The position numbers and the translations under genes were made by a program. The notes below the pieces were generated by a model. It did no database searches, was not told the DNA's origin, and saw nothing but the letters and a program-made list of their open reading frames with translations. From IMG/VR virus record IMGVR_UViG_3300010354_000859, positions 1 to 20,707 of that record: a stretch of DNA of 20,707 nucleotides. One strand, given 5' to 3'. Below, in pieces: positions 5,022-17,817 of this stretch. This DNA is from a virus. The number at the start of each line of letters is the position of its first letter. Within the stretch, counting starts at the first letter, position 1.

Positions 5022-6767
5022 CTATTTGCATTTAGTATTTTGTTTAGTTGGAGTCCATTTTCCTGGCGGACATTGTATAAATTTTACGGGTAATTCTGGT
5101 TGTATCGACTTTATATTACTGTAAATTTCTTGATAGAATTCAGAAAATCCACCACCATCATCAAATTCTTTGTTTTTAAACAGTTTAGAAGCAGTATAAA
5201 GAGCAATATTGTTTATGGCCATAATATCTATTTTCTTCCTACTGGATATTTTAAAATCTCCCTGAGAACCAAGAAAAGCGTCTCCTTGAGTGTGGATAGA
5301 AAGAATGCTAGACTTGTTTTTTTCTTTTCCTTCCACATTTCCACAGTCTATACTCACAGAAGTGTAACCCTGTAATTCTAGACTACCTTGTGACATAAGA
5401 ATGTTGTTTTTTAAAGATCTTATTATGCTTCTTTCGGCAACTATAGAAAGATCACCCAAAGAAAGAGCACCCTTACTCAGGCCAATGTTGTCACCCAAAG
5501 TTATAGAAAGAGATTGGTGTGATTCTGCTGTTCCAGCACCTTCATATGTTCTTTCTGCACCAAATTTATAATGCTCTCTTACCGTTTCTTCTTTTCCTCC
5601 AGCCCCATACTGTCTCTCTACTAAATTTAGATAATGTTCTTGTGCCTGTCCCTGAACAAGTTGTCCTAGATTATAAATCTTTGTTTCCTTTTTTGATCCC
5701 TTTTTTGTCATTTCTAAGTTATCAAAATCACCGTCTATTCTGACATCTCTGTTTTTCCCTATTTCTGTTACTTGATCTTCACCTACAACCACATGCATAT
5801 GTCCAGTGCATTCTAGATTGTAGTCACCGTTGATAAAGTGATTAAAATTACCACAATCTTGACGCATATTTATGTCTCCCTTTTTAAGTTGAACATTAGC
5901 GTCACCTTTATCCATGAGGACATTTAGTTGACCTTCCTCGACATAAATGTTTATATTTGCTCCCTTACCTACATGAATATCAAAATTTACTGCATTGTGT
6001 TCTTTTGTTTTCATTTCATCCGTGTTCATACGGATTTTTAATGCTTTATCTACAGTAATATCGCAATACCCATCAACATGAACATGACCGTCTCTAAGAA
6101 CAGAAATATAACTATCCCTTACTATTTTTACTACTTTATCGCCGTTTGGATGGTATTCTTCAAAAGTTCCACTTCTATGATTTGTTGAAATTCTCTCACT
6201 GCCTGGAGTATCATCAAATTCTAAAACATGACCAGATTCTGTTTCTGTTACTTTATTATATGGATAGATTGTTAAGTCTTTAAATCTTTCTTCTTCCGTA
6301 TCTCCAACTCCATCACTACCTTCACAGTCATTGCAACCTTTTCTTGGTTTTATGTCCTTACCTTTAATTTTTGCGTATTGCGTTGGAGTTTCAGACCATC
6401 CTTTTCCTTTATTTGTTTCTTTCTTTTTTGAAAAAGGATCGCATCTGGTAGAACCGCCACCACCGCCACCAGAACCGCCTCCTCCTCCTCCACCACCACC
6501 GCCACCAGAACCGCCTCCTCCTCCACCACCACCGCCACCAGAACCGCTGCTAGGTCTGGAGGGAGCAACGGGATCGGTTGTAGAAACTGTTGGACGAGTA
6601 GGTCTAGGTCTTCCCCCAGAACCTCCCCCACCTCTTCCACCACCACCAGATCCACCACCAGATCCACCACTGGTTCCTCCACCAGAACCAGCGCCGCTGT
6701 CGCCACCACCCGTGTTGGGGTTTGGGGGTAATATCGGGGGATCACAATTATCCAAAAAATCTGGCAT
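5022..6767 (-). CDS. Tail spike protein, gp5 C-terminal-like, with long Gly-rich N-terminal region
   Basis: This 581-aa protein begins with a Pro/Asn-rich peptide (residues 1-18), followed by about 90 residues that are mostly glycine with Ser, Pro, Arg and Thr. After residue 110 comes a folded part. Residues from about 190 to 360 are short beta repeats with regularly spaced Gly and Asp (for example HVHVDGYCDITVDKALKI, GQLNVLMDKGDANVQLKKGD, GEDQVTEIGKNRDVRIDGDF), the pattern of the trimeric beta-helix of T4 gp5 C-terminal domain and VgrG spikes. The C-terminus has paired Cys (CPPGKW...KCK). In T4 this spike pierces the outer membrane. The upstream gene supplies the gp5 OB-fold, and the start overlaps its stop as TAATG. 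No lysozyme domain is seen in either gene. The spike role is well supported; the function of the glycine region is unknown. Confidence 0.75.
   Translation of the reverse strand: MPDFLDNCDPPILPPNPNTGGGDSGAGSGGGTSGGSGGGSGGGGRGGGGSGGRPRPTRPTVSTTDPVAPSRPSSGSGGGGGGGGGGSGGGGGGGGGGGSGGGGGGSTRCDPFSKKKETNKGKGWSETPTQYAKIKGKDIKPRKGCNDCEGSDGVGDTEEERFKDLTIYPYNKVTETESGHVLEFDDTPGSERISTNHRSGTFEEYHPNGDKVVKIVRDSYISVLRDGHVHVDGYCDITVDKALKIRMNTDEMKTKEHNAVNFDIHVGKGANINIYVEEGQLNVLMDKGDANVQLKKGDINMRQDCGNFNHFINGDYNLECTGHMHVVVGEDQVTEIGKNRDVRIDGDFDNLEMTKKGSKKETKIYNLGQLVQGQAQEHYLNLVERQYGAGGKEETVREHYKFGAERTYEGAGTAESHQSLSITLGDNIGLSKGALSLGDLSIVAERSIIRSLKNNILMSQGSLELQGYTSVSIDCGNVEGKEKNKSSILSIHTQGDAFLGSQGDFKISSRKKIDIMAINNIALYTASKLFKNKEFDDGGGFSEFYQEIYSNIKSIQPELPVKFIQCPPGKWTPTKQNTKCK
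6453..6713 (-). repeat. Poly-glycine coding region made of short repeats
   Basis: On the plus strand this reads as runs of CCACCG, CCTCCT and AGAACC units; on the coding strand as GGTGGC/GGAGGA glycine codons with TCT or AGT serines. A block of about 36 bases is repeated around 6465-6545. The longest uninterrupted glycine runs are 10-11 residues. The GC-rich DNA stands out from its AT-rich surroundings. The mixed use of glycine codons suggests selection for glycine and not just DNA slippage. It probably encodes a flexible linker. Confidence 0.85.
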
Positions 6768-10600: not shown

Positions 10601-11035
10601 ATGTCGTACAAAGGAATATACAAAGTACAAAATCCTTCCAAATATGTCGGTGATCATAATAATGTCACCTATAGATCCCTATGGGAAAGAAAATTTATGG
10701 TGTTCTGTGATAAGAATTCTAGTGTTTTAAAATGGTCTTCCGAAGAAGTCGCAGTACCATATTTATCGCCAATTGATGGTAAATACCATAGATATTTTGT
10801 TGATTTTTTAGTAGAGTTTAAAACCAATAATGGATCAGAAATATTCCTGATAGAAATAAAACCAAAAAGACACTGCTCTCCACCCAAAAAGGGTAAAAAA
10901 ATGACAAAAAATTACTTACAAGAAATGCAAACTTGGAAAATAAACAGTTCAAAATGGAGTCACGCAAGACAATTCGCAGACAAGAATAATTGGAAGTTCA
11001 AAATATTAACGGAAGATGATCTCAACATAAAATGA
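10601..11035 (+). CDS. 4: Head completion nuclease gp4
   Basis: This 144-aa protein matches T4 gp4 (150 aa) along its length: SKYVGDHNNVTYRSLWERKF (T4: SKYRGDPKKITYRSNWEKFF), the YFVDFLVEF strand, IFLIEIKPKR and KILTEDDL at the end (T4: RILTEDGL). Glu29, Asp68, Glu85 and Lys87 (in E-I-K) fit a PD-(D/E)XK nuclease site. In T4, gp4 is needed to finish filled heads so that tails can join, and it has been reported to have nuclease activity. The start at 10601 fits the T4 N-terminus. There is no Shine-Dalgarno sequence, and the late promoter element is only six bases away. The stop overlaps the next start as ATGA. Confidence 0.92.
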   Translation: MSYKGIYKVQNPSKYVGDHNNVTYRSLWERKFMVFCDKNSSVLKWSSEEVAVPYLSPIDGKYHRYFVDFLVEFKTNNGSEIFLIEIKPKRHCSPPKKGKKMTKNYLQEMQTWKINSSKWSHARQFADKNNWKFKILTEDDLNIK

Positions 11036-11643
11036 AAACCATACAAGAAGCCATTCTAGAAGAAGTTCAAAAAATAAACAAAAACCAAGATTTACCAAAA
11101 GATAAATCTATAATTGGAAAAATCTCAAGAGATTTACAAAAAATAAGAGGTCTTGTTCCTAAAAAAGATCTTAATCAAGCAAAATTAAAAAAATCATTCC
11201 CATCTAAAAAAGATGGATATCTTTACATGATGGAATATGTCCCTCCAGACAAAAACAAAAGAGTGTTTTTTGATAGATTTCCTGTGATATTAGTTTTGGG
11301 ATTTTTTGGGAATAAATTTCTGGGAGTAAACTTACATATTCTTCCCCTCAAGGAGCGAGTGTTGCTGATGTTCTTTATGATTAAAAACATGAGAAAAACA
11401 AAAGAAAAATATGCAAGAATTAAAATAAATTCTCTTCTTTCAAATAAAACAATTTTGAAATACATACTTGAAACAAAAGATACTTTCTATACTACTGGTA
11501 TAAGATCGAAGATAAGACCAATAGAAAAAGAAGAAATAGTAGAAAGTGTATTTTTACCAGTAGAAAAATTCATAGGTATGCCAAAATTAAAAGTACACTC
11601 AATGATGAGAAAGAGACTAAGAGCAAATGATTTCTTTAACTAA
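11032..11643 (+). CDS. Conserved phage protein of unknown function
   Basis: This 203-aa basic protein begins with a helical, Lys-rich part (1-60). The core has VFFDRFPVILVLGFFGNKFL followed by GVNLHILPLKERV at about residues 78-110. I recognise this DRFP...FLGVNLHxLP pattern from proteins in other T4-like phages without being able to attach a proven function. A second conserved-looking part is ESVFLPVEKFIGMPKLKVHS near residue 170-190. It lies between gp4 and a tail-tube-fold gene and overlaps both (ATGA with gp4, 17 bases with the next). In T4, gene 2 (DNA end protector) is the neighbour of gene 4, which makes a head or DNA-end role possible, but this is from position only. A structural or assembly role is likely because all its neighbours are virion genes. 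Confidence 0.8.
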   Translation: MKTIQEAILEEVQKINKNQDLPKDKSIIGKISRDLQKIRGLVPKKDLNQAKLKKSFPSKKDGYLYMMEYVPPDKNKRVFFDRFPVILVLGFFGNKFLGVNLHILPLKERVLLMFFMIKNMRKTKEKYARIKINSLLSNKTILKYILETKDTFYTTGIRSKIRPIEKEEIVESVFLPVEKFIGMPKLKVHSMMRKRLRANDFFN

Positions 11644-12139
11644 CATCAATATAGCAAGAACAAACAGATTTGCTGTTACTGTCATTCCTCCTTCAGCATC
11701 TGGTTTAGGATCTACAGTATTCAATGATACTTACATAGAATCCGTAGATATGCCTTCTCTTACAATAGCAACGGAAGATTATGAAATAGATGGAAAACCC
11801 ACTATCAGAGTACCTTACAAAAAAACACCAGCAGGAACTATTACTATAAGTATTCGTCTGGAAGAAGATGGTAAATCTAGAAATTATTTCAAAACTTGGA
11901 TGAACAGCATCATCTCTTCAGATCAACAAAAAACCTATTACAGAAAATATTACAACGAGATAGTAGGAACCGTGAGAATAGCACAATTAGATGTAAAAGA
12001 AAAACCAAAATTTGGTGTTACTTTATTAGATGCTTATCCAGTAACTGTTGATACTATTCAGTATAACTGGGGTGAGCAAAATGAATATGTAAGACAAAGT
12101 GTAACCTTAGCGTATTATGATGAAATAGACTCAATTTAA
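11627..12139 (+). CDS. Tail-tube-fold protein (gp19/gp54 type), probable tube initiator
   Basis: This 170-aa protein has the order of elements of T4 gp19 and gp54: an N-terminal RTNRFAVTVIPPSAS strand, the loop SVDMPSLTIATEDYEIDG, then VPYKKTPAGTITISIRLEED, an aromatic helix KSRNYFKTWMNSII, a KYYNEIVGTVRIAQLD strand and a C-terminal TIQYNWGEQNEYVRQSVTLA strand ending YYDE (T4 gp19: LDWDSNNEIQTFEVTLALDY). The main tube gene gp19 normally lies next to sheath gene 18, which is not here, while in T4 the tube initiator gene 54 lies beside 48. I therefore favour gp54 function, although T4 gp54 is longer (320 aa). The ATG at 11627 is inside the previous gene and follows AAGAG. Confidence 0.7.
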   Translation: MISLTNINIARTNRFAVTVIPPSASGLGSTVFNDTYIESVDMPSLTIATEDYEIDGKPTIRVPYKKTPAGTITISIRLEEDGKSRNYFKTWMNSIISSDQQKTYYRKYYNEIVGTVRIAQLDVKEKPKFGVTLLDAYPVTVDTIQYNWGEQNEYVRQSVTLAYYDEIDSI

Positions 12140-12154
12140 TTCATGGAGAATATA

Positions 12155-12868
12155 ATGAAATTACCTCGTATTGAAAATCCGATATTTGTGACAGAATTAC
12201 CTTCTAATGGTAAAAAAGTGAAGTACAGACCATTTTTGGTAAAAGAAGAAAAGATGCTTCTAATAGCGGCAGAAACAAAAGTAGCAACAGAAATAATTGA
12301 AAATGTAAATAATGTTATTCAAAATTGTTTAATAGAAAGCGATATAAAGGTTGAAGATCTACCATCTTATGATGCTCAGTGGTTGTTTTTGCGTTTACGA
12401 CAAGTATCAATAAGCGATGCAATAAGCGCAAGAGTCAAATGCCCAATAACCAACAAGTATTTTGAAACCGATATAAAGTTAGCAAAAACACAAATAATAA
12501 AAGAGAACAAAAGAAACAACAAAATATTATTTGAAAACGGAATAGGTGTTGTTTTGAAAGATCTCACTTTAAAGGATGTATTTTGTGACGGTGCTCTTGA
12601 GAATATGGATAGTTACTCGACCGTTCTCAACCTCATAGCAAAATCTATATCTCAAATTTTTGATAAAGAAAATGTATATGAATCAAAAGACATGAAGTTG
12701 GAAGAAATAGTAGAGTTTGTGGAGAGTCTGAGAAAAGAACATTTTGATAAGTTAGTAGCGTTCTTCGAATCAATACCCACAATGAGATTAGAAGATGAGG
12801 TGTTTTCACCACACGCAAATCAAAATATTAAAGTAGTTTTGGATAACTTTATGGATTTTTTCGCCTAG
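12155..12868 (+). CDS. 26: gp26-like baseplate hub/tail assembly protein (T4_baseplate family), upstream part of a frameshift pair
   Basis: From ATG 12155 the protein is 237 aa (T4 gp26: 208 aa). It has the family pattern KYRPFLVKEEKMLLIAAETK near residues 23-42 (T4: KVRPYLVKEEKLLLTAMESK), IQNCLIESDIKVEDLPSYDA and the C-terminal HFDKLVAFFESIPTMRLEDE segment. An earlier in-frame ATG at 12143 is less likely because its own bases include the GGAG at 12145-12148, which is ideally placed six bases before 12155. gp26 is needed for T4 hub assembly but its exact place in the virion is unclear. Here it lies just before the tape-measure candidate, the place of tail assembly chaperones, and its 3-prime end has a perfect -1 slippery site. 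Confidence 0.88.
   Translation: MKLPRIENPIFVTELPSNGKKVKYRPFLVKEEKMLLIAAETKVATEIIENVNNVIQNCLIESDIKVEDLPSYDAQWLFLRLRQVSISDAISARVKCPITNKYFETDIKLAKTQIIKENKRNNKILFENGIGVVLKDLTLKDVFCDGALENMDSYSTVLNLIAKSISQIFDKENVYESKDMKLEEIVEFVESLRKEHFDKLVAFFESIPTMRLEDEVFSPHANQNIKVVLDNFMDFFA
12856..12862 (+). promoter_or_regulatory. Candidate -1 ribosomal frameshift site T TTT TTC
   Basis: In the gp26 frame the codons are GAT TTT TTC GCC TAG, giving the canonical X XXY YYZ heptamer T TTT TTC with the zero-frame stop two codons later. After a -1 slip, reading goes TTT TTT CGC CTA GGG CTG and stays open for 62 more codons to 13050. Only a weak possible stem (CCTA at 12864 with TAGG at 12890) is seen downstream. A six-T run is also a place for sequencing error, which would have to be excluded. 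Confidence 0.65.
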
Positions 12869-13050
12869 GGCTGTCGCGTGAAAGTCTGTTAGGAATGTAT
12901 AAAACCAATTTCATTCTTATGCAGGAACACAAGTACAGCCTGGAAGAATTAGAAAATATGATTCCGTGGGAAAGAACTTTATATGTGAGTTTACTGGTAG
13001 ATCATGTGAAGATGATAAACGAAAGAATAAAGCAAAGAAGGAAAAAATAA
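12862..13050 (+). CDS. -1 frame extension of gp26, probable tail assembly chaperone (GT-like) part
   Basis: This short frame encodes 62 residues after the slip site. The product would be gp26 residues 1-236 followed by RLGLSRESLLG, then MYKTNFILMQEHKYSLEELE and NMIPWERTLYVSLLVDHVKM, ending in a basic tail (about 298 aa in all). The frame stays protein-like upstream of its first Met (12895), back to the slip site, and that ATG has AGGA directly against it, too close for good initiation, so frameshifting explains it better than a separate start. The stop TAA at 13048-13050 touches the ATG of the tape-measure candidate. By comparison with lambda G/GT, the extension could connect the chaperone to tube subunits. 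A free 51-aa protein from 12895 is the alternative. Confidence 0.7.
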   Translation, partial: RLGLSRESLLGMYKTNFILMQEHKYSLEELENMIPWERTLYVSLLVDHVKMINERIKQRRKK

Positions 13051-16000
13051 ATGGCAACTTCACAGCAAGAATCAAACAACCCAATTTTTAATTTAGCAAA
13101 GTCTCTTGGACCTGTTGAAAGAGATGAAAACGGAAAAAACAAAGATTTGGTTCTTGCTGTTGAGGAATTGACTTTAACCACTGAAAAATTAGAAGAAACT
13201 AACTCTTTGCTCGTTAAAATGCTTTCAGTAAAAGAGTCAACTGTGGAGAAGATTCAATCTTTAGGATCTCCCATGCTCACACCAAACGATGAGCCTATTC
13301 AAGATATAGTTGTAGAAAATGAAGAAAAGACAGAACAACAATTAGAGGAAGAAAAAGAAAACAGAAAAGAAGATGAAAATCACCAAGAAAAAGTAGAAAA
13401 ACTATTAGAAGAAATTAAGGATAAACTAGGAAAAGAAGGATCGGACAAATCGGATAAGGACAGTGGAGGGGGAGGCGGAATAATAAGCAACTTCTTAGGA
13501 ACACTTGGTGGTTTAATTGCCATAAGTGTAACAAATGCTATTTCTAAGAAATTTGGAGGAGCAATTGCTCGTGTAGGGTTAGCGATTGCTAAAAAATTTC
13601 CAAAAATAGGTGGTGCTGTAACAAAATTTGGTGTAGACACAGCAAAAACGGGAATAAAAGGAGCAGCACAAAAAGCAACACTTTCTGGCTTGTCTAAAGT
13701 TGCAACAAAAGTAGGCGCTACTAAATTAGGCGCAAAGATGACTGAATTGGGAGAGGGGATAGGAGCAAAAGCAGCAGGATCATCAAAATATGCAGGAAAA
13801 GGCGCCGCTTCCGCTGCTAAAGCAGCAACTGGTACGGCTGGAGCCGCTGGTACGGCTGGAGCCGCTGGTGCGGCTGGAGCCGCTGGTGCGGCTGGTGCGG
13901 CTGGAGCCGCTGGTGAAGTTGCAACAGGAACAGCACAAGTAGCATCTAAAGGTGGATTCTTCAAGAATATGCTTACTAGCGTAAAAGGAGGTTTAAGTAA
14001 TTTTGCTTCTAATGCAGTAAATTTGGTTAAAAACCCAATGACTGTTCTCAAAGAAGGTGCTCCAAAAATACTATCTGCTGCTAAGTCGATACCAATTATC
14101 AACACAATATTGGAAAGCATAATAGGTGCTATCAACATATCATCTATTAAAGATGATCCAAATCTTTCAGCAGAAGAAAAGAAAGAACAAATAGGTAAAG
14201 AAATAGGAGCAAGATTTGGTTCATTTGCTGGTGGTACTTTACTAGGAGTCCTCGGAACTGCTTTGGGTCCACTAGGAACCATTGTTGGTGGTGTTGTTGG
14301 TTCTATGGGTGGTGAGTGGTTGGGTAGTAAAATTGCAGAGTGGGTAGGGCCACAAGGAATTTATGATTTTGCTGCAAGCATACCAGGCATAGGAAGTCTA
14401 ATAGAAGTCAAAGATGGAAATGAAATTCAAGAGGAACAACAAAAACAAGCAGAACAAAATGTTTCAAATGTGACTCCATCTGTAGAAAACCAATCCCCGC
14501 AACTTTCAACCACAGAAACTTCACCAACACCAGCAATTGCTACAACACCGGCAGTTGCTGCTACTTTGGCTGCACCTGTTTCTACCACAGTTTCTCCACA
14601 AACTACAAGTGTTGGAACAGGTATGACGGGAATTCAATCATCAATAAATCCAGCAACAGGAATGATAGCGGCAGCAACAATGTCTTCCATTCCAGTTACA
14701 TCAACAGAAACAGTTGATAAATCAACAATTCAATCTGTTTCCACACCGAATGAACCAGTTAAACCATTGACTATTTCCGAATTAATCATAGAAAATGCTA
14801 CAGTAAAAAATCTATCTTATGATAAAGATCAAAGTATCGTAACCAAAGAAGAATCTAAAGTAAAGCAAGAGGAATATGAAAAAACTTCAGAAGAAGAAAC
14901 AAAAACAGAAAATGTTTCACAAGAAAATAAATCTGAAACTTCTTCTCTTTTAATGTCTTCTCCATTGATGCAAGCAATAAACGCTGGTGGCAGTGGATTC
15001 AGTAAACTTTTTTCAAACATCACACTTCCATTTAAAACAATTTCACAGAAATTGTTTGAATCTTTAGGCATAACAACACAGAACAATAATAACAACAATC
15101 AATCAGTAGCAGGAACTGCAAATACCACCACTACTGGACCAACTCTTAATATAACAACTGCTAATGTTGAAACATTAAACATTTCCAACAAATCAAATCA
15201 AACTTCTGAAGAAAATACCTCTTCCTCTGTTGGTGATGCAGTAGAACCATTAGCAGCAATGGCGGAACAAGCAACGGAACCAGGATCAATTTATGTTCAC
15301 GACATACATGCTGTTGCTGTTTTGACAGAAATACTAGGCATACTTTCTAATAAGACACCTGATGTTCAAACAGAACAAACAACTGAAGTAAGTCCAAGTA
15401 CGACTAATACATCTAATAATACATCTAATACCAGTACTCAAGTAAGTCCAAGTACGACTAATACATCTAATAATACATCTAATACCAGTACTCAAGTAAG
15501 TCCAAGTACGACTAATACCAGTACTCAAGTAAGTCCAAGTACGACTAATACCAGATCTACTACTAGAAATGCAAATTATTATGATAATCATCCAGAAATT
15601 GTCGATCTTTCACAAGAAGATTGGGATAACGAAGGTCAATTACAGAGAATAAAAAATCTAGAGATACAAAAAATTATTATGGAAGAAGTAGGTTTGTCTC
15701 AAGGCATGTTTAGAGCAAATCATTTGGTAGATGAAAACAACAGAGTTATAAATTTTGACAGAAGGTATGCTTCTTCTATAGAAGAAGCACAAAATCAAGT
15801 TAATTCAGTGTTGGAATTAACAAGATCAATGTCTGGAGAATCTACAACACAAATTCAACCAGCACCTCCATCATCCCCATCAATATCACCACAATCAACT
15901 AGTCCATCAGCACCAACAACACCAACAACTCGTCCATCAGCACCAGGAACTAGTCAAACTACTTCCAATCCTGATGTGTCTAGTATGACACCAGAACAAA

Positions 16001-17817
16001 GAAGAAGAGCACTTGAAGATGCTTTCAGACAACAAGAACAACTAGAACAAAACAACCAAGTTCTGCCCCCACAAACATCCGCCGAACAACCCGTCTCTGT
16101 ACAACAACCTACACAACAACCAAGTTCTGTCCCAACAACAAGTAATGTGTCAATGGCTTCCTCCACTACCATTTCACCAATGTTTAGTGAAGAACAAATA
16201 ACAAAAATAGTCTCTAACCTTCCAGCAGAATCCAGAATTGATGCTGAAACTGCTGCTCAATATTTAAGAGATTTAAATGAAGAGGAAGATCCTAAAACAA
16301 GAGAAGAAATGCTTAAACATTTCAAAAATACAGTTTATGGTGAACAGGAAGAAAGTAGCACCCCTCAATATGCTAATGAACAGGAATTTAAAAAAGCAAA
16401 TGTAGCAAAAATGAAAGAAGATGCTGCAAAGATTCAAGATCCAGAACAACAAAGATTGTTCTTGGAGTATATTGATCAGTACGAAAAAAATGAAGCAGAA
16501 AAGAGCAGCACTCCACAGTTCTCTACAGAAGCAGAGTGGAAAGACTACAACATCAAATTGATGACTGAAAATGCTGGCAAAATTCAAGATCCAGAACAGA
16601 AAAAGAAATTTGAAGAATATATTGAACAATATAAAAACAATGAAGCAGAAAAGGGGACAGAAGCACCAGATCATACAAAGATGATGCTTGATGCTATTCC
16701 TAGCATGGATTCTGAAAGTGCAATTAAATTGCTTGAGCATATGGATAATCAAGCAAAGGGAGCACCAGAGGAAAGCACACCATCTCTAAGCAATAAGGAA
16801 AGTTTAAAACAGACAATAAATTCTGAAAAAGATCCTGTTACAAAGAAAAAACTGATAGATCATTATCAGAGAACTTTTGGGGAAAAGTATACACCTCCGA
16901 AGATGCAAAATACTTCAGAACAAAGTATGCCCGTTTCTACATCGGTACAATCAGCAAATACATCTTCAACACAACAAATTAGTAAAGAAGATCAGGTAAA
17001 AAGATATGAAGAAATAATAATGGTTATAAAACAAACCATATCTAAGATCAAAAAAGAACCAAATACACCACAAAAGAAACAAAAACTAGAAAAAGCACAA
17101 CAATTACTAAAAGAAGCAATTGCCGCTAAAAATCAACTAACAAAACAAGAAAAACAACAAACTCCTAAAAATAATACAAGTGATGTAAAACCAACATCAA
17201 GTTCGGTTTATCCATCTACTTCTAAATCTACAGTTGTTCCTTTACAACCACAAACAACAGCAATATCATCACCTACCAGTGAAACTACTTCAACTACTGA
17301 TGTGTCTAAAATGACACCAGAACAAAGAAGAAGAGCATTGGAAGATGCTTTTAAACAACAAGAACAATCTACTAACCAAACTACTTCAACTACTGATGTG
17401 TCTAAAATGACACCAGAACAAAGAAGAAGAGCATTGGAAGATGCTTTTAAACAACAAGAAGAAAAAGAAAAATTTAGGTACATTCATCCAGAAAGTCCAG
17501 AAGCCAGATTGAAAGCAGAAGGACTAGCAGCGGTAGATAAAGATGTTTCCCAAGAAATAACACCATCTCCTCAATGGACTAGAGAGGAATCAAATCTATC
17601 ACAAGGGTTGTATGCTCAGAGTATGGAAAGTAAATTCTTAACAACACCAATGTCAAACTATAGTAAATCAGATCAAGAATCTTCAAAACCATCAACAATA
17701 AACATAAACAACAATTCTGGTAGTCAACCACAACATTTCTATGGAAAACAAGGAACGCCAGGAGAACCTACTCTAGACGATCTAGCAAGATCACAAGTAA
17801 CAGTTATGATAGTATAA
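13051..17817 (+). CDS. Tape measure candidate / large repetitive virion protein
   Basis: This 1588-aa protein starts right after the frameshift frame, with AAGGA eight bases before the ATG. Residues 85-135 are Glu/Lys-rich and probably coiled coil. Residues 144-164 (IISNFLGTLGGLIAISVTNA) and 390-432 (with LLGVLGTALGPLGTIVGGVV) are hydrophobic, Gly-rich segments such as tape measure proteins use near the membrane. Residues 261-287 are Gly-Ala-Ala triplets. From about 450 to the end it is Ser, Thr, Gln, Asn and Pro-rich with several repeat families. It ends with a more ordered segment (HFYGKQGTPGEPTLDDLARS). T4 gp29 (590 aa) is the tape measure, but I see no clear similarity, so the call rests on position, size and hydrophobic parts. 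The length is far more than a T4-size tail would need, so the C-terminal part may have another job. Confidence 0.6.
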   Translation: MATSQQESNNPIFNLAKSLGPVERDENGKNKDLVLAVEELTLTTEKLEETNSLLVKMLSVKESTVEKIQSLGSPMLTPNDEPIQDIVVENEEKTEQQLEEEKENRKEDENHQEKVEKLLEEIKDKLGKEGSDKSDKDSGGGGGIISNFLGTLGGLIAISVTNAISKKFGGAIARVGLAIAKKFPKIGGAVTKFGVDTAKTGIKGAAQKATLSGLSKVATKVGATKLGAKMTELGEGIGAKAAGSSKYAGKGAASAAKAATGTAGAAGTAGAAGAAGAAGAAGAAGAAGEVATGTAQVASKGGFFKNMLTSVKGGLSNFASNAVNLVKNPMTVLKEGAPKILSAAKSIPIINTILESIIGAINISSIKDDPNLSAEEKKEQIGKEIGARFGSFAGGTLLGVLGTALGPLGTIVGGVVGSMGGEWLGSKIAEWVGPQGIYDFAASIPGIGSLIEVKDGNEIQEEQQKQAEQNVSNVTPSVENQSPQLSTTETSPTPAIATTPAVAATLAAPVSTTVSPQTTSVGTGMTGIQSSINPATGMIAAATMSSIPVTSTETVDKSTIQSVSTPNEPVKPLTISELIIENATVKNLSYDKDQSIVTKEESKVKQEEYEKTSEEETKTENVSQENKSETSSLLMSSPLMQAINAGGSGFSKLFSNITLPFKTISQKLFESLGITTQNNNNNNQSVAGTANTTTTGPTLNITTANVETLNISNKSNQTSEENTSSSVGDAVEPLAAMAEQATEPGSIYVHDIHAVAVLTEILGILSNKTPDVQTEQTTEVSPSTTNTSNNTSNTSTQVSPSTTNTSNNTSNTSTQVSPSTTNTSTQVSPSTTNTRSTTRNANYYDNHPEIVDLSQEDWDNEGQLQRIKNLEIQKIIMEEVGLSQGMFRANHLVDENNRVINFDRRYASSIEEAQNQVNSVLELTRSMSGESTTQIQPAPPSSPSISPQSTSPSAPTTPTTRPSAPGTSQTTSNPDVSSMTPEQRRRALEDAFRQQEQLEQNNQVLPPQTSAEQPVSVQQPTQQPSSVPTTSNVSMASSTTISPMFSEEQITKIVSNLPAESRIDAETAAQYLRDLNEEEDPKTREEMLKHFKNTVYGEQEESSTPQYANEQEFKKANVAKMKEDAAKIQDPEQQRLFLEYIDQYEKNEAEKSSTPQFSTEAEWKDYNIKLMTENAGKIQDPEQKKKFEEYIEQYKNNEAEKGTEAPDHTKMMLDAIPSMDSESAIKLLEHMDNQAKGAPEESTPSLSNKESLKQTINSEKDPVTKKKLIDHYQRTFGEKYTPPKMQNTSEQSMPVSTSVQSANTSSTQQISKEDQVKRYEEIIMVIKQTISKIKKEPNTPQKKQKLEKAQQLLKEAIAAKNQLTKQEKQQTPKNNTSDVKPTSSSVYPSTSKSTVVPLQPQTTAISSPTSETTSTTDVSKMTPEQRRRALEDAFKQQEQSTNQTTSTTDVSKMTPEQRRRALEDAFKQQEEKEKFRYIHPESPEARLKAEGLAAVDKDVSQEITPSPQWTREESNLSQGLYAQSMESKFLTTPMSNYSKSDQESSKPSTININNNSGSQPQHFYGKQGTPGEPTLDDLARSQVTVMIV
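13831..13911 (+). repeat. 18-base tandem repeat coding (Gly-Ala-Ala)n
   Basis: Four full copies and one half copy of GGTGCGGCTGGAGCCGCT (with GGTACG in the first two) lie head to tail: 13831, 13849, 13867, a 9-base half at 13885 and 13894. They code nine Gly-X-X triplets with Ala (Thr twice) as X. The DNA is far more GC-rich than its surroundings. The period of three is collagen-like, but there is no proline. Confidence 0.9.
15388..15552 (+). repeat. 54-base and 33-base tandem repeats
   Basis: Two identical 54-base units start at 15388 and 15442 and begin GTAAGTCCAAGTACGACTAA. A 33-base version lacking an internal 21 bases follows at 15496, and a partial one at 15529. They code Ser/Thr/Asn-rich peptide (SPSTTNTSNNTSNTSTQ). 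The identical copies indicate recent unequal expansion. Confidence 0.92.
16354..16653 (+). repeat. Two 50-residue helical modules (150-base period)
   Basis: Residues 1102-1151 and 1152-1201 of the large protein align with exactly 50 residues between them. Both start SSTPQ, contain KIQDPEQ and end in E-Y-I-(D/E)-Q-Y-x-x-N-E-A-E-K. The DNA has diverged while the protein pattern is kept, so these are older duplications than the 54-base and 81-base repeats. Confidence 0.85.
17284..17460 (+). repeat. Perfect 81-base duplication coding the MTPEQRRRALEDAF module
   Basis: Positions 17284-17364 and 17380-17460 are identical. Each encodes TTSTTDVSKMTPEQRRRALE followed by DAFKQQE. A third, diverged copy lies at 15973-16041. 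The module is a short basic/acidic helix with a TPEQ cap. Confidence 0.93.

Follow-up and report, generated by a model that had tools for sequence, protein, structure and literature searches.

A very likely −1 frameshift joining gene 26 to a gp51 domain in T4-like phages, and a candidate RNA element downstream of the slip site

The end of gene 26 in a T4-like phage fragment has the layout of a −1 programmed frameshift that would give rise to a pair of tail assembly chaperones, and codon choice just after the slip site favours RNA structure. The fragment, referred to here as the window, is the 20,707-nt IMG/VR virus record IMGVR_UViG_3300010354_000859, which carries T4-type baseplate and tail genes. 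In the account that we regard as highly probable as a whole, gene 26 would encode a short tail assembly chaperone (TAC-N), and at U UUU UUC a minority of ribosomes would shift back by one base, with the help of an RNA stem whose start lies 5 nt further downstream. The slipped ribosomes would continue into the gp51 domain (TAC-C) and produce a TAC-NC protein of about 300 residues. Like lambda gpG and gpGT, the short and long forms would attach to the tape-measure protein and bring in tube subunits while the tail is being built, and would then leave. We infer that slippage occurs in this phage and does so in a minority of passages, that the stem stimulates it and, by homology, that the products likely act as chaperones. 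The frameshift itself is very likely real, as judged from the sequence comparisons described below. The mechanism is not new, because frameshifting in the tail assembly chaperone genes of T4-like phages has been described in earlier work.

The gene 26 junction and its conservation

The features of the window that enter the argument are the following.

11627–12139, + strand: gp19-like tail tube family protein (PF06841, E 2.1e-07; PHROG 45, E 2.2e-27), directly upstream of gp26
12143–12868, + strand: gp26 / TAC-N, 241 aa as listed (PF12322, PHROG 150, alignment with relatives)
12856–12862, + strand: slippery heptamer T TTT TTC (read from sequence; T TTT TTN in 109/109 junctions)
12862–13050, + strand: TAC-C / gp51 extension in the −1 frame (PHROG 634, C-terminal end of PHROG 150, extension alignment)
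12866–12868, + strand: gp26 0-frame stop TAG, one codon beyond the slip, a spacing shared by 98/109 junctions
12868–12880, + strand: 5′ arm of the predicted stem (minimum-free-energy fold; synonymous-codon z −4.04 over 90 nt)
12928–12941, + strand: 3′ arm of the predicted stem (98.1% of cells paired in 9 distinct sequences; no covariation)
13038–13042, + strand: Shine-Dalgarno-like AAGGA of the next gene, inside the extension (read from sequence)
13051–17817, + strand: tape-measure candidate, 1588 aa (position and length; PHROG 1047 'tail associated lysin', E 2.4e-09 over part)

The 3′ end of gp26 reads GAT TTT TTC GCC TAG, and the −1 frame runs without stops from 12847 to the TAA at 13048–13050, which abuts the ATG at 13051. 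An earlier note on this DNA had claimed a perfect T TTT TTC heptamer at the end of gp26 and a −1 frame open over 12847–13050 with its stop touching the next ATG; both are present in the sequence, the heptamer at 12856–12862. The extension contributes 62 aa beyond the Phe-Phe pair encoded at the slip. The true start of gp26 is likely the ATG at 12155 and not the listed 12143, as the Met at 12155 is the start in most aligned relatives and GGAG lies upstream of it at 12145–12148. The predicted TAC-NC product is accordingly 302 aa from 12143 or 298 aa from 12155.

Profile searches assign both halves of this product. The gp26 protein matches PF12322 (Pfam T4_baseplate, TAC-N; E 1.9e-45) and PHROG 150 (E 7.5e-46). 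The small frame, left unnamed in the earlier note, is a gp51 domain, matching PHROG 634 ('baseplate hub assembly catalyst', gp51) with E 2.8e-22 and also the C-terminal end of PHROG 150 with E 7.9e-08. A profile built from 40 extensions aligned with T4 gp51 residues 200–245 (probability 79%, E 1.6e-05), and the alignment of these 40 has a mean column identity of 59%, with the Phe-Phe pair and the residues after it conserved. When the −1 peptide was used in tblastn, 542 of 50,697 phage records matched at E ≤ 0.1, and among the matches listed 57 of 60 start at the first slip Phe, which is a weak test of where homology starts because the query held one residue before that Phe. In T4, gp51 (249 aa) matches PF12322 over residues 1–201 and PHROG 634 over residues 147–246; gp26 (208 aa) matches PF12322 and PHROG 150, and its profile search returned no match to PHROG 634. 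T4 gp51 thus reads as a gp26-type domain plus the extension, since both profiles match it, so that the pair gp26 and gp26-51 is like gpG and gpGT of lambda. The direct profile comparison of gp26 with T4 gp51 is weak (probability 21%, E 0.0011), though both match PF12322. Unlike T4 gp51, the small frame in the window carries no gp26-type domain itself, although the contig is a fragment and another copy could lie outside it.

Structure prediction bears on the family assignment of gp26. An AlphaFold2 model built with 61 sequences reached pLDDT 88 and pTM 0.82. In a comparison with 917 chains using VIA-align 2, 2OB9, the tail assembly chaperone of HK97, matched best (Z 7.6, with an rmsd of 5.2 Å over 88 residues, covering the first ~90 residues), followed by YqbN 3KLU (Z 7.1). 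A Z of 7.6 is middling, and values below 8 may reflect a mere common arrangement. Foldseek ranked 2OB9 only 12–13 (E 0.92–0.98), with GTP cyclohydrolases at the top. Against predicted viral proteins, the named top matches of the model were gp26-type baseplate hub proteins, and the family is therefore confirmed, but no more than that. PDB sequence searches gave no matches for the window's gp26 and a chance-level match only (E 1.3) for T4 gp51. The extension modelled alone is mostly helical, at modest confidence (pLDDT 75, pTM 0.47).

The heptamer by itself is unremarkable: across 17 ORFs of the window, 6,465 codons in all, there are 6 more in-frame copies of T TTT TTN. It is the conservation that exceeds chance. 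We collected 93 IMG/VR loci (13 from one search and the best 80 matches listed from another), the window and 15 hand-picked GenBank phages chosen to span hosts, giving 109 junctions, of which 104 are distinct. The GenBank hosts are Synechococcus, Prochlorococcus, Pelagibacter, Ochrobactrum, Rhizobium, Sinorhizobium, Stenotrophomonas, Delftia, Aeromonas, Vibrio, Caulobacter, Acidovorax and Pseudomonas. The 80 loci were obtained with two peptide patterns, one of them close to the C-terminus; all codons were allowed in back-translation, which left wobble bases unselected. All 109 junctions have an in-frame T TTT TTN within the last ~15 codons of gp26, near its stop, and an open −1 extension, although these counts are not independent because the loci are related. 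The heptamer is TTTTTTC in 92, TTTTTTT in 12, TTTTTTA in 3 and TTTTTTG in 2, and the gp26 stop lies one codon after the slip in 98. In four loci (L022, L025, L095 and L099) the 0 frame stops only 8 codons past the slip, and both frames are open there. The extensions are 57–69 codons long including the two Phe, apart from L089, whose extension is cut to 45 codons by the end of its contig. Immediately ahead of the slip stands an Asp, Ser, Asn or Gly codon, which is always NNT (background 64%), and the first slip Phe is always TTT (background 69%). Among other Phe-Phe pairs in gp26 bodies, 1 of 89 is written T TTT TTY. Five further covered junctions all have the same arrangement, as does Vibrio phage Bakedbeans. 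The earlier note had proposed looking for the heptamer and the −1 frame in relatives, and had named one continuous ORF or loss of the heptamer as outcomes that would count against a frameshift; the two elements are kept throughout the set, and each of those outcomes was seen at 0 of 109 junctions.

Independent initiation and other rival explanations

The arrangement might instead mean that gp51 is a separate small protein made by independent initiation or reinitiation from a start of its own, which would be ATG 12895 in the window. A separate gp51 gene is how most GenBank records present it, the extension being annotated as such in 14 of 19 frameshift-type records looked at and not at all in the other 5, namely S-CAM8 (L133), S-SSM4 (L134), S-PRM1 (L135), AS-zj (L104) and ACP17 (L109). 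The gp26 stop also overlaps a −1-frame ATG, as TGATG or TAATG, in 6 of the 15 GenBank phages (L101, L102, L103, L106, L107 and L111), where the overlap could also permit reinitiation. The start codons themselves speak against such a protein. The first one in the extension falls anywhere from 3 to 34 codons past the slip across the 104 distinct junctions, a scattered position, and it is preceded by a Shine-Dalgarno sequence of dG ≤ −4 in 6% of them, as compared with 15% of random positions, 45% of gp26 genes and 41% of next genes (n=97), the last two figures being the best of several candidate starts. When all starts up to 40 codons into the extension are considered, the proportion rises to 30% of the 104; in the window, the strongest of these starts reaches −3.3. 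The earlier note had held that the small frame has no well-spaced Shine-Dalgarno sequence, which agrees with an AGGA placed directly against ATG 12895 and a dG of −0.4. Independent initiation also does not account for protein-level conservation that extends back to the slip Phe-Phe, upstream of any start codon, for heptamer wobble positions that are fixed across junctions, or for T4 gp51 also carrying the gp26-type domain. We consider a separately initiated gp51 improbable.

A shift in frame could also arise during transcription. Polymerases can slip on runs of six or more T, and at least six T in a row are always present at the junctions. Six T is short for efficient transcriptional slippage, however, and the phase of the T run relative to the codons is fixed, while downstream of it an RNA structure with ribosome-like spacing is favoured, so that slippage of the polymerase rather than the ribosome appears very improbable. 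As for a sequencing error or a decaying fusion, one single-base change could join the two frames, yet the same arrangement at 109 of 109 junctions, 15 of them in GenBank phages, refutes error or decay and leaves that explanation a negligible probability.

RNA structure downstream of the slip site

The earlier note missed a predicted RNA stem downstream of the slip. Structure was assessed by randomising synonymous codons according to local usage and expressing fold stability as a z value relative to the randomised sequences, with positions counted from the slip. Over the 45 nt from +9, the mean z is −2.0 in the 104 distinct junctions versus −0.3 in control segments from gp26 bodies (p about 6e-21, phylogeny ignored). 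This near structure has a z below −1.5 in 60% of the junctions and above 0 in 12%; about 40% fall short of −1.5. In the 96 loci outside the clade of the window, the structure signal in 48-nt segments is strongest between +6 and +12 (mean z −2.1 to −2.3) and has faded to −0.35 by +45, and many of the individual folds are compact hairpins.

The window clade (10 members, 9 distinct sequences) is built differently, with a mean z of −0.3 to +0.2 for 48-nt segments at +6 to +18 and hence no near hairpin; a compact hairpin was considered for this clade and rejected, z over 60 nt being −1.3 to +1.5. Its signal appears over 90 nt from +9, where z is −2.2 to −4.7 in 10 of 10 members. Over 120 nt z is weaker (−0.8 to −3.7), and 90-nt segments starting at +18 give −0.6. 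The 48-nt segments at +24 and +30, with z of −2.2 and −1.5, take in the inner part of this longer fold, and one upstream segment stands at −1.35. The predicted stem begins 5 nt past the heptamer and has more pairs inside, and the window's own fold adds two extra pairs at 12864–12865. In the clade, 98.1% of stem cells are paired in register versus 25–51% when slid. There is no covariation in the window-clade stem, in which 10 of 12 pairs never vary. Codon use was also examined by hand. Degenerate codons of conserved residues are invariant at 6 of 7 positions in the stem arms versus 5 of 39 elsewhere (p 3.5e-4 with 38 entered for elsewhere, phylogeny ignored), the arms having been chosen for this count after the conservation was seen. 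Covariation is scarce in relatives as well: where a His-Met motif is present (34 loci), between 25 and 34 of the 34 cells are paired at each of five positions, and the Asp subset of these loci contains one covarying pair (Fisher p 0.022; 22/23 loci; uncorrected, phylogeny ignored). An Rfam search of the window gave no match.

The downstream RNA element is a probable candidate for the stimulator of the frameshift. It also seems fairly likely that frameshifting in the tail assembly chaperone genes of T4-like phages is set by a selected RNA element that takes at least two forms across lineages, many relatives having a compact hairpin and the window clade a long interrupted stem whose arms span ~75 nt of the extension.

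Relation to known chaperone systems and the tape-measure gene

Vladimirov and colleagues, in 2022, reportedly found frameshifting to be conserved in several T4-like groups, with T4 said to use genes 26 and 51. The title of their article names the tail assembly chaperone genes of T4-like phages (Vladimirov, Gautam, Davidson, Virology 2022, 566:9–15). One passage that cites it refers to polyT slip signals in TAC-N genes of T4-like phages (PMC12846349), and another states that in some T4-like phages a short TAC gene is accompanied by a longer, fused one in place of frameshifting (PMC10885494). The genes and polyT slip signals referred to in these passages are of the same kind as those in the window, and the earlier note, which knew of no description for gp26, had overlooked this work. 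The titles and abstract openings of the open-licence literature searched name no RNA stimulator at T4-like TAC sites. In Adele-type phages (Vandenendeviridae), as a passage in PMC12846349 describes them, TAC-NC is likewise made by a −1 shift at a T-rich site, and the extension, which lies ahead of the tape measure gene, was annotated as a hypothetical gene of its own; they differ from the window in belonging to another phage family and in using a GTTTTT motif. Lambda makes a short form, gpG, and a −1 frameshift long form, gpGT, that bind the tape measure protein, as stated in PMC5009743, which also excepts T4 from the conserved G-T frameshift. The window shares with lambda a short form and a predicted −1 long form, and differs from it in having contractile T4-like tail genes and a predicted downstream stem. 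The −1 frameshift and the parallel with lambda G and GT put forward in the earlier note are supported on sequence evidence, with the extension identified as gp51 and both domains found in T4 gp51.

T4 itself, which the earlier note did not recognise as using two separate genes, 26 and 51, provides a comparison. Its gp26 and gp51 contain the same domains as the window's gp26 and extension. They come from two separate divergent genes, gene 51 lying on the opposite strand to gene 26, and the gene 26 end has no in-frame slippery heptamer; its Phe-Phe is kept, coded TTC TTT after G. T4 gp26 and gp51 are listed as hub assembly chaperones in a passage of PMC3004832, and one in PMC9024508 mentions proposed chaperone roles for both. 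We sampled eight such two-gene phages (T4, Thanatos-2, CC31, Roth20, PS2, AM101, 011D4 and phiAS4), and none of the 8 has a gene 26 that ends with an in-frame heptamer or is followed by a gp51-like −1 extension. Six T are present in Thanatos-2, in another phase. In AM101, gp26 and gp51 are both annotated as tape measure protein assembly chaperone.

The gene at 13051–17817 is the presumed tape measure, and near-identical repeats (TPEQRRRALEDAF..., SPSTTNTS...) lie in its second half. In Cr30 and phiM12, a gene annotated as, or similar to, a tape measure follows after one small gene; in S-SSM4 and DLP6, genes downstream carry the names endolysin or lysozyme. For 70 of 97 loci, the distance from the extension stop to the next start is −20 to +3 nt. 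Frameshifted ribosomes that end at the ATG of the candidate tape measure might drive its translation, which stays a guess because the next gene in the window has its own Shine-Dalgarno-like AAGGA. Elsewhere in the window, the ORF at 11032–11643 (+) matches the DNA end protector family (PHROG 429, E 3.6e-19), and the one at 10601–11035 (+) is positioned as are the gp4-like head completion genes in OC and phiM12. A 581-aa ORF at 5022–6767 (−) has a very glycine-rich low-complexity stretch near its start.

These observations bear on how gp51 is to be read across the T4-like phages. The absence of the heptamer where gene 51 stands alone (8/8) is a natural contrast for the frameshift. In a passage of a 2010 comparison (PMC3037559), cyanophage gp51 was described as reduced, at ~20% of the usual length. 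The present analysis points to the small 'gp51' of marine T4-like phages being the distal part of a frameshift product and not a reduced protein. If the RNA element is confirmed, frameshift signals would become comparable across phages from their sequences.
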